Shown here: piece by piece, positions 36,183 through 41,960 of the stretch
Layout: each line of letters opens with the position of its first letter
Position numbering within the stretch: position 1 is the stretch's first letter
From: Tsukamurella conjunctivitidis
GTDB taxonomy: Bacteria; Actinomycetota; Actinomycetes; Mycobacteriales; Mycobacteriaceae
Direction: 5' to 3'
Length of the DNA: 64,000 nt
Assembly (NCBI RefSeq): GCF_007858475.1
Contig: NZ_VIGX01000002.1
Location: 496,001 to 560,000 of the forward strand
Notes under the pieces: generated by a model
Told to the model about the DNA's origin: nothing
The model's database searches: none
What the model saw: only the letters and a program-made list of their open reading frames with translations
Position numbers and translations under genes: made by a program

Positions 36183-37384
36183 TGGAGATCCCTGGGGACC
36201 ATCCCGGCCGCACCGGCGACGAGCTCGGCCTGGCGTTCAACCGGTTGCGGCGGCACGCCGTCGTCAGCGACTTCGTCTGGCGGTACTCGGTGGCGGGGTT
36301 CACGGTGTGCGTCGGGCTCTTCGGGGTCGCCATGATCTTCACCCCCGAAGGAGCCGGTGAATCGACGGCCCGGGCGGTGGCTCTCGGCGCCCTGTTCCTC
36401 TCCGGCGTCCCGGCGGCCTTCGCCGTGAGCCGCCTGCCGATGACGTCGCTGTGGTGGAATCCGTGCCCGCGCCGGAAGCTGATCAGCACGCTGTTCGTGC
36501 TGTACGCGGACATCGTCGTCACCAGCATCCTGGCGTTGTACAACAGCCCGGCGGCGGGGCTGGCGGGAACCGTCCTGTTCGCCACCGTCGGCGCCTACGC
36601 GGCGCACTTCCTGACCACGCGCACACTCGCAATGCACCTCGTTGTGTCGAGCGTCGTCATCGTCTTCCTGGGCGTCCGGGTCGTCCAGGTGTACGGCGCG
36701 ACGCCGCTCGCCGTGAGCGCGCAGGTCGCCGTCAGCATCCTCGGCATCGGTGGTGTCGTGGTCCTCAACTACCTCTACACCTGGCAGATCAAGCAACTGA
36801 TCCGGGCCAGCCTCACGGCGTCGTCCACGGACGCGATGACCGGCCTGCTCAACCGGACCGGGTTCCGCGATGCGGTCGACGAGATGTTGCGGTCCAGCAC
36901 GGGGCGCATCGCGGTCTGCATCATCGACGTCGACCGCTTCAAACTCATCAACGACGTGTACGGGCATCTGGCCGGCGACGCCGCTCTGCGCGCGGTGGCG
37001 ACAGCGCTGCGGCGATCCGGCGCGCCGGATGCGCTCGTCGCCCGGATCGGCGGCGACGAGTTCGCGATCGTATCCGGGCTGCCCGGCCGCGAGCTCGAGC
37101 GGAGCCTCGCCCAGGTGCAGGCGAGACTGCCCACGCTGGCGAACGGGGAGCGGGTGTCGATCAGCGCGGGCATCGCCGCGGCGGACCTCGCGGGCGCCGG
37201 CCCCCTGCAGACCTTCGACCAGCGCGGCAGGTTCTTCTCCGCGCTCGCCGCGCGGGCGGATGAGGCGCTGCGGGGCAGCAAGGAGTCCGGGGGAGAGCGG
37301 GTCACCGTCCACCGGCCGGGCCCGGCGCCGGATCCTCCGTCGGGCCGACCGCCGGGCGGTGCCGCGGGCGCCGCACAGGGCTAG
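36182..37384 (+). CDS. Membrane-bound diguanylate cyclase (GGDEF)
   Basis: 400 aa. Six membrane helices (about 36-54, 65-84, 101-119, 128-146, 152-170, 180-200) form a sensory domain with no recognised name. The GGDEF domain follows (about 212-375): DAMTGLLNRTGF, IDVDRFKLINDVYGHLAGD, and the intact active-site loop RIGGDEFAIV (GGDEF at 290-294). The RxxD product-inhibition site expected before GGDEF is absent (PDAL instead). It should make c-di-GMP from two GTP. No EAL domain is attached. The 3' end overlaps a convergent small gene by 4 bp. Confidence 0.9.
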   Translation: MEIPGDHPGRTGDELGLAFNRLRRHAVVSDFVWRYSVAGFTVCVGLFGVAMIFTPEGAGESTARAVALGALFLSGVPAAFAVSRLPMTSLWWNPCPRRKLISTLFVLYADIVVTSILALYNSPAAGLAGTVLFATVGAYAAHFLTTRTLAMHLVVSSVVIVFLGVRVVQVYGATPLAVSAQVAVSILGIGGVVVLNYLYTWQIKQLIRASLTASSTDAMTGLLNRTGFRDAVDEMLRSSTGRIAVCIIDVDRFKLINDVYGHLAGDAALRAVATALRRSGAPDALVARIGGDEFAIVSGLPGRELERSLAQVQARLPTLANGERVSISAGIAAADLAGAGPLQTFDQRGRFFSALAARADEALRGSKESGGERVTVHRPGPAPDPPSGRPPGGAAGAAQG

Positions 37385-37542
37385 GAGAGCCCCTCCTCCT
37401 CGGCGAGGACGCCCTCGTCGTCCCCGTCGAGGTCGGCGCCCACGGCTTCCCGGGCGTCGAGCTCCGCCCGCTGTGCCTCCGCCGCCGCCTCGGCCGGCGT
37501 CTCCGCCAGCTGCGAGAGATCGGGATCGTTCGGCGTACTCAT
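37381..37542 (-). CDS. 53-residue acidic protein coupled to the Clp gene
   Basis: [20 protein letters not shown] to EEEGLS, 53 aa, with about 16 acidic residues and only two basic. Its ATG overlaps the stop of the Clp-type ATPase gene (ATGA), a strong sign of translational coupling. The start, size and composition argue for a real small protein, perhaps an adaptor or regulator of the ATPase or of the encapsulin system. No homologue is known to me. The 3' end overlaps the convergent GGDEF gene by 4 bp. Confidence 0.65.
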   Translation of the reverse strand: MSTPNDPDLSQLAETPAEAAAEAQRAELDAREAVGADLDGDDEGVLAEEEGLS

Positions 37543-40931: not shown

Positions 40932-40934
40932 GAC

Positions 40935-41960
40935 TTACCTTTCCTTGAGGCCGCCGATGCCGAGCGAGCCGTCGGCGGGGGCGGGCGTGGTCGATCCGGT
41001 CGGGTCCGCCGCGGCGGCGGGGGTCGGGAGATCGGGCGGTGCGTCGAGCCAGTCGCCCGACGGGGTGAAGAACAGGCAGCCCGTGTGTGCCGTCGAGAAG
41101 TCGAGGATCCGATCGGTGTTACCGGCCGGATCGCCGAGGAACATGTTGCGCAGCATCTGTTCGGTGACGCCGGGGTCGCGGGAGTAGCCGATGAAGTACG
41201 TGCCGAACTCGCTCGTGCCGAGCTCGCCGAAGGGCATGTTCTGCCGCACGATCTGCAGCTGCTCTCCGTTCTCGTCCTCGATCACGTTGAGCGCGATGTG
41301 CGAGTCCGCGGGCTTCACGTCGTCGTCCATCTCGATGTCCTCGAGCTTGCTGCGACCGATCACGCGCTCCTGCTCGTCCACGGAGAGCGCCCGCCACGCC
41401 GACATGTCGTGCAGGTACTTCTGCACGTGCACGTAACTGCCGCCCGCGAAAGCGGGATCCTCTTGTCCCACTTGGGTCGCGGTCACGGCCGCGTCGCCCT
41501 CGGGGTTCTCCGTGCCGTCGACGAAGCCCAGCAGGTCGCGGTTGTCGAAGAACCGGAAGCCGTGCACCTCGTCGACCACCGTGACCGCGTCGCCGAGCGC
41601 GTCGAGGATCCGCCAGGACAGCTCGAAGCACATGTCGAGGGTGCTGGCCTTGACGTGGAACAGGACGTCGCCCGGGGTCGACGGTGCGCTGTGCCGCGGA
41701 CCCTCGAGCGGGATGAACGGATGCAGGTCCTTGGGCCTGGGGCCGGAGAACAGGCGGTCCCAGGCGTCGGAGCCGAACGAGGTGGTGAGCGACAGATGCT
41801 TCTCGGGGTACCGGAAGCCGACCGAGCGGGTGAGTCCGGAGAGATTGTCGAGCGCGTCGTGGACGCGGTCCTCCCGCCCCCGCTCGATCGTCGCCACGAT
41901 GAACATCGCGGCGTGGGTCAACGGCGAGATCACAACTTGATTCGGGACCACGATTTTCAC
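40935..41960 (-). CDS. DyP-type peroxidase, encapsulin cargo
   Basis: 341 aa heme peroxidase. Catalytic residues by family match: distal Asp148 in GFVDGTENP; proximal heme-ligand His221 in ADSHIALN; Arg239 and Asn241 in IVRQNMPFG. A Pro/Ala/Thr linker (311-329) leads to the C-terminal peptide DGSLGIGGLKER, which fits the consensus cargo-loading peptide (G-S-L-x-I-G-x-L) that docks inside the shell. It uses H2O2 to oxidise dyes and lignin-like or iron substrates, and in encapsulins it is linked to oxidative and acid stress. It starts the operon and overlaps nothing upstream. Confidence 0.95.
   Translation of the reverse strand: MKIVVPNQVVISPLTHAAMFIVATIERGREDRVHDALDNLSGLTRSVGFRYPEKHLSLTTSFGSDAWDRLFSGPRPKDLHPFIPLEGPRHSAPSTPGDVLFHVKASTLDMCFELSWRILDALGDAVTVVDEVHGFRFFDNRDLLGFVDGTENPEGDAAVTATQVGQEDPAFAGGSYVHVQKYLHDMSAWRALSVDEQERVIGRSKLEDIEMDDDVKPADSHIALNVIEDENGEQLQIVRQNMPFGELGTSEFGTYFIGYSRDPGVTEQMLRNMFLGDPAGNTDRILDFSTAHTGCLFFTPSGDWLDAPPDLPTPAAAADPTGSTTPAPADGSLGIGGLKER

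Follow-up and report, generated by a model that had tools for sequence, protein, structure and literature searches.

The usual picture of encapsulins is of cages that assemble by themselves, with neither energy nor helpers required. As far as the consulted parts of a survey of encapsulin systems go (PMC8346489), the accessory genes named are SDR, cupin, DUF1345, DUF5709, 6-phosphogluconate dehydrogenase and diaminopimelate decarboxylase, and a word-start search of its main text returned neither 'ATPase' nor 'AAA' nor 'Tsukamurella'. The abbreviation CLP, in the portions seen of this survey and of PMC11830004 and PMC8229669, stands for the cargo-loading peptide or for a person's initials. We found no report linking encapsulin or DyP to a Clp protein, a disaggregase or an AAA ATPase in open-access PMC—a collection that subscription papers mostly fall outside. 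ClpL and ClpG, according to the sections seen of PMC11006417 and PMC8129007, carry no ClpP motif and act as stand-alone disaggregases.

The window analysed here—64,000 nucleotides of Tsukamurella conjunctivitidis—contains a row of minus-strand genes (37381-41960) encoding a DyP peroxidase, an encapsulin, a Clp protein and a 53-aa acidic protein (Table 1).

Table 1. Coordinates of the window genes and of related features in Streptomyces loci
Feature	Position	Strand	Remarks
DyP-type peroxidase, 341 aa, GTG start	40935-41960	-	Pfam PF04261/PF20628; C-terminal cargo-loading peptide DGSLGIGGLKER
Family 1 encapsulin shell protein, 264 aa	40137-40931	-	NF041155, 338.7 bits (cut-off 100)
Clp/Hsp100 AAA+ unfoldase, 847 aa	37539-40082	-	Clp_N, AAA and ClpB_D2-small; ClpC-size M-domain, without ClpP loop
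Acidic protein, 53 aa	37381-37542	-	no family match in Pfam/NCBIfam
Encapsulin-Clp gap, 54 bp	40083-40136	-	likely ribosome-binding site GAAGAAAGG
Formate-dehydrogenase-like gene	43388-45055	-	NAD-type, so annotated in the T. tyrosinosolvens record
Tail-less DyP and loop-less Clp pair, Streptomyces	L298:7221-10877		no adjacent encapsulin gene
Tail-less DyP and loop-less Clp pair, Streptomyces	L314:4836-8311		no adjacent encapsulin gene
Formate-dehydrogenase-like gene near DyP-encapsulin, Streptomyces	L216:11720-15175
Conserved promoter-like clp element, example	L211:15327-15358	-

The window locus and the class of its Clp protein

Re-reading of the coordinates bore out the first-pass annotation of this row exactly—gene order, strand, the 3-bp gap between DyP and encapsulin, the 54-bp gap between encapsulin and Clp and the 4-bp overlap of the small ORF with the Clp stop—and the Pfam and NCBIfam families agreed. 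Simple scans, which are a weak test in actinobacteria, turned up neither a sigma-70-type promoter within 36500-42800 nor a terminator-like site within the encapsulin-Clp gap. Both the DyP (Dyp_perox_N/C in Pfam; best solved relatives 7bok and 9bkx, the latter entry also containing a shell chain) and the shell protein (Linocin_M18, above the cut-off of the family 1 encapsulin model; PDB relatives 9i8d and 7boj) are ordinary members of their families. At the sequence level, the pair is a family 1 DyP-encapsulin system, with a shell protein above the model cut-off and an upstream DyP that ends in a cargo-loading peptide; a tail of the same type is carried by DyP in 15/15 other Tsukamurella loci. 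The closest named relatives of the window genome are T. sputi and T. asaccharolytica (encapsulin identity 97%), and the annotated record of T. tyrosinosolvens shows the identical order of all four genes. A formate-dehydrogenase-like gene lies upstream of DyP and is syntenic in Tsukamurella; such genes are found near DyP-encapsulin in both Tsukamurella and Streptomyces. One T. tyrosinosolvens sequence (L286, NZ_LR134465.1) is titled plasmid 23, and it may be a piece of the chromosome, since it carries glmU, a ribose-phosphate diphosphokinase gene and pth together with the synteny of the genus locus.

The Clp protein has Walker A and B motifs in both rings and intact pore loops (KYRGEFE and GYVGY). 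The short M-domain and the lack of a ClpP loop, both read from the sequence in the first-pass annotation, proved real. By residue count, the span from the D1 arginine finger to the D2 Walker A measures 209 residues, against 276 and 279 in two ClpBs and 215 in ClpK; on alignment, a shorter acidic stretch takes the place of the ClpP-binding IGF/LGF loop where ClpC1 of the same genome has its LGF loop. ClpC1 and ClpB, so named by similarity and loop, are encoded elsewhere in that genome. The window Clp is set apart from ClpB by score (1011.9 bits, cut-off 1232.1) as well as by M-domain length, from ClpG/ClpK by about 901 bits in the NCBIfam models (cut-off 1900) and by the branching of ClpK outside its clade, and from ClpC as a protease partner by the missing ClpP loop. 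With two intact AAA domains, pore loops and no IGF/LGF loop, its sequence has the features expected of a ClpP-independent Hsp100 disaggregase.

Phylogenetic reconstruction placed the window Clp in a clade of 75 Clps from Mycobacteriaceae and Streptomyces (support 1.0), and none of the members read has a ClpP loop. The sister group, at 57-59% identity, comprises Streptomyces genes with an [ILV]GF loop (13/13). A DPFxDxxxRFFG-like aromatic motif at the N-terminus, tried as a candidate encapsulin signal, was rejected: it is present in loop-bearing and other relatives and is therefore not encapsulin-specific. A second loop-less Clp group (L174-L178, L180, L183, L186, L188, L190, L192), drawn for the most part from the phylum's family f18, was also observed; its genomes have no encapsulin at E<=1e-30.

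Distribution and linkage of the loop-less Clp clade

Encapsulin—counted throughout as family 1-type matches above the search cut-offs, with families 2-4 outside the scope—is present in 16/16 Tsukamurella genomes, and a Clp orthologue in 11, in every case directly behind encapsulin at about 30-80 bp (82-97% identity outside the window). The other five genomes (G001, G002, G005, G012 and G011, the last a doubtful member of the set) contain Clp matches only at ClpC1/ClpB level. Tsukamurella genomes largely share the series formate dehydrogenase-FUSC-DyP-encapsulin-Clp-dienelactone hydrolase, so the arrangement in the genus probably goes back to one ancestral event. Between its encapsulin gene and its small ORF, G005 retains a remnant matching Clp residues 755-834, and the small ORF of G002 is preceded by a leader resembling that found before clp elsewhere, which makes Clp loss the likelier reading for these two. 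Clp is dispensable: some Tsukamurella lines probably lost it from the locus and kept DyP and encapsulin. In G009 (L144), encapsulin and DyP are each broken over two frames and Clp is intact; sequencing error is possible, since the assembly is 83% complete. Of 80 encapsulin loci (flanks of up to 10 kb, some shorter), seven are from Tsukamurella and, where checked, recur within the 16 genomes above; Clp occurs in four of these seven, and a fifth keeps a remnant. One of the 73 loci from elsewhere has Clp, that of Mycobacterium aquaticum, 5.3 kb away and on the other strand.

Across 201 Mycobacteriaceae genomes, a strong Clp match (E<=1e-280) was found in 29 outside Tsukamurella (72-78% identity, one 57%), 28 of which fall in the clade. 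Whether the Clp gene is found mostly away from encapsulins had been named in the first-pass annotation as the observation that would speak against a functional link, and the answer is divided. Neither DyP nor encapsulin lies near Clp at any of the 29 loci (up to 20 kb around Clp, two cut by contig ends), yet 26 of these 29 genomes encode encapsulin. The co-occurrence is non-random, with encapsulin in 26/28 carriers of the clade Clp against 82/158 Clp-negative Mycobacteriaceae outside Tsukamurella (p 2e-5, phylogeny being ignored in this test as in those for Streptomyces below). A RelA/SpoT-domain gene, whose family takes part in stress signalling, recurs near Clp at five unlinked loci, and no heat-shock or redox-chaperone family was found in a sample of 19 scanned proteins near unlinked Clps (10 + 9). 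A search of 396 genomes across the phylum gave a strong Clp match in 43 and encapsulin in 31; five have both. The tree took in 30 of the 43 Clp matches, and of these only the ones from the five co-carriers belong to the clade. Three of the five co-carriers are linked: the window genome and two Streptomyces, with the genes 336 bp and 3.8 kb apart.

In Streptomyces, encapsulin was detected in 48/199 genomes (E<=1e-80), and Clp was surveyed, using a Streptomyces Clp as query, in these 48 and in 32 of the 151 encapsulin-negative genomes, taken in list order. The clade Clp (>=68% identity) occurs in 34/48 encapsulin-positive against 1/32 encapsulin-negative genomes (Fisher p 3e-10); with two further encapsulin-negative genomes counted in, whose loop-less Clps (62-63%) lie outside the clade, the latter figure becomes 3/32 (p 4e-8). 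The loop-bearing paralogue (57-59%), used as a negative control, showed no association (at least 7/48 against at least 6/32, both lower bounds owing to the cut-off; p 0.76). At the cut-offs used, 14/48 encapsulin-positive Streptomyces and 82/108 encapsulin-positive Mycobacteriaceae outside Tsukamurella have no Clp, so the DyP-encapsulin system works without it.

Clp lies within 10 kb of encapsulin in 10/48 Streptomyces loci (four of the 48 span less than 12 kb and could hide further linked Clps), and at 14.6 kb in G674. It follows encapsulin on the same strand in L202 and L223, directly precedes DyP in L218, stands 1.3 to about 4 kb ahead of DyP, separated from it by a gap or by other genes, in L211, L228, L203, L216, L219 and L224, and is convergent behind encapsulin in L230. 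On the Clp tree the linked loci fall at four or five positions, some of the nodes separating them being weak, and several are close relatives, so the ten represent fewer independent events. With G674 included, molybdopterin oxidoreductase is encoded in 7 and FdhD in 6 of 11 linked loci. The suggestion that Clp and encapsulin are not neighbours at random was thus sustained, by adjacency in 11/11 Tsukamurella and by linkage, differently placed, in Streptomyces.

In two Streptomyces genomes, DyP and Clp are paired where no shell gene adjoins them. In G597, the single encapsulin-negative carrier of the clade Clp, with no encapsulin genome-wide at E<=1e-80 nor any trace of one in 16.5 kb at the locus, a DyP without a cargo-loading peptide lies directly upstream of Clp on the same strand. 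G585 carries an ordinary DyP-encapsulin pair on a different contig; immediately upstream of its Clp lies a second DyP, which has no tail, and the 12 kb examined there contain no encapsulin. The two tail-less DyPs pair up (0.97) within the encapsulated Streptomyces DyPs, with a support of 0.14 for their nearest neighbours. In both cases the probable course is loss of shell and tail, with DyP and Clp retained side by side. The pairs make the peroxidase look like the partner of Clp—the best clue to this, though one resting on two cases that are related to each other.

The small acidic protein and the regulation of clp

The first-pass annotation had cast the 53-aa protein as an adaptor. The small ORF is found at the locus in 11/16 Tsukamurella genomes, 8/11 with Clp (divergent in G010) and 3/5 without (G001, G002, G005). 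The 700 bp behind Clp or encapsulin contained no copy in G003, G007, G014 and G012, and neither did the 1.2 kb behind the encapsulin of G011. Ten aligned copies, the divergent one of G010 being left out, gave dN < dS in 45/45 pairs. By these two sequence measures, occurrence at the locus and selection, the ORF is a real gene. Relatives are encoded elsewhere in the genomes of G003, G007, G014 and G011, with an ABC-transporter ATPase gene nearby in the two read further (G003 and G007). An AlphaFold2 model from the single sequence has one helix (16-42; mean pLDDT 72.6) and tells little. The 4-bp overlap and the purifying selection are what an adaptor feeding cargo or shell to Clp would lead one to expect; however, the protein tracks the encapsulin locus more than Clp, being missing behind Clp in 3/11 Clp-positive genomes, retained beside encapsulin in 3/5 Clp-less ones and represented at another locus in three, and we regard this role as very improbable.

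Motifs of HspR/HAIR, CIRCE, SigB, SigH and SigR type were in no clear excess upstream of clp (27 Mycobacteriaceae and 40 Streptomyces loci, some of which count one gene twice) or of dyp (14, 57 and 48 loci), the strongest signal being SigB-like in 2/40 Streptomyces clp upstreams against 0.1 expected by simple shuffling. On these scans, a shared stress regulator of clp and dyp was rejected. A GTTTGCG-N-GGGTTTGAGTG-like element, which presumably resembles SigB-type promoters, has 24 matches in Streptomyces loci: clp upstream regions account for 23 (15 distinct genes), one lies elsewhere and dyp upstream regions have none. With a conserved promoter-like element of its own at these genes, clp could be expressed separately from dyp.

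Proposed function of the Clp protein and relation to known systems

The genes, their motifs, the absence of the ClpP loop, the single-clade ancestry and the non-random linkage and co-occurrence are supported directly. On this basis, our leading reading, to which we assign a probability of about 0.48, is that the Clp would be a ClpP-independent ring unfoldase or disaggregase that has entered a genetic partnership with the encapsulin-class DyP peroxidase. By analogy with ClpL and ClpG, which disaggregate alone, its activity is likely to be unfolding and release. In Tsukamurella, the protein would be produced from the DyP-encapsulin operon, and its N-terminal region might grip DyP that is misfolded, aggregated, heme-free or damaged by oxidation—and perhaps shell subunits that have mis-assembled—whereupon the gripped protein would be threaded through the pore and released for refolding and shell loading, with no degradation. 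Recurrence of the partnership in Streptomyces suggests a maintenance machine of its own for the nanocompartment enzyme. That the loop-less clade as a whole is a dedicated, ATP-driven nanocompartment unfoldase, with encapsulin-class DyP as client for cargo maturation and repair, we propose more tentatively.

The main rival is a general stress disaggregase that works on bulk aggregates and is co-selected with DyP-encapsulin through oxidative or stationary-phase stress, without DyP as a direct client. As stated in the passages seen of PMC11006417 and PMC8129007, ClpG and ClpL have bulk aggregates as substrates, and the clpG gene is located in transmissible stress clusters with thioredoxin. The lack of linkage at all 29 non-Tsukamurella Mycobacteriaceae loci agrees with such a role, as do the distance of more than 10 kb in 24/34 Streptomyces (G674 included, some on separate contigs), the promoter-like element of clp and the RelA/SpoT-domain neighbour. 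Yet the loop-bearing paralogue has no encapsulin association, the sampled neighbours of unlinked Clps yielded no stress-chaperone family, and DyP remains beside Clp where shell and tail are missing; we consider this rival somewhat less likely than the leading reading. The last observation also weighs against shell remodelling, by which Clp would pull on encapsulin subunits and open or dismantle shells for cargo loading or unloading: encapsulin adjoins Clp in every Clp-positive Tsukamurella genome and is encoded by 11/11 Tsukamurella, 26/28 other Mycobacteriaceae and 34/35 Streptomyces clade carriers examined, but two DyP-Clp pairs lack an adjacent shell gene and one of the genomes has no encapsulin that we could find, which renders it improbable. 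A chance adjacency inherited once would fit the mostly common gene order, and so the probable single event, within Tsukamurella; the Streptomyces orthologues beside DyP-encapsulin in several arrangements, the M. aquaticum locus and the co-occurrence tests leave hardly any room for it.

If the DyP-Clp partnership is conserved, cargo folding, repair or loading would be an active step, and the loop-less actinobacterial Clps would gain a client. The idea is testable in laboratory Streptomyces. The natural DyP-Clp pairs without shell and tail offer a ready means to separate cargo-directed from shell-directed action.

Compared with known systems, the locus shares with the family 1 DyP-encapsulin operon a tailed DyP followed by a family 1 shell gene, and differs from it by the additional Clp unfoldase and 53-aa acidic protein. 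With ClpG/ClpK, whose published case is ClpP-independent, the window Clp has in common two AAA rings and a ClpC-size M-domain, whereas it is actinobacterial, encapsulin-linked and placed in a clade that excludes ClpK. ClpL is likewise a stand-alone disaggregase without a ClpP motif, with aromatic residues at its N-terminal tip, but groups with ClpA, far from the window Clp clade, in a tree with long branches. A further comparison is with ClpC1 and the loop-bearing Streptomyces Clps (labelled ClpC2-like in this analysis): the best solved relatives of the window Clp are ClpC proteins, and the nearest larger tree neighbours of its clade include loop-bearing Clps—which possess the [ILV]GF loop that the window Clp clade lacks.
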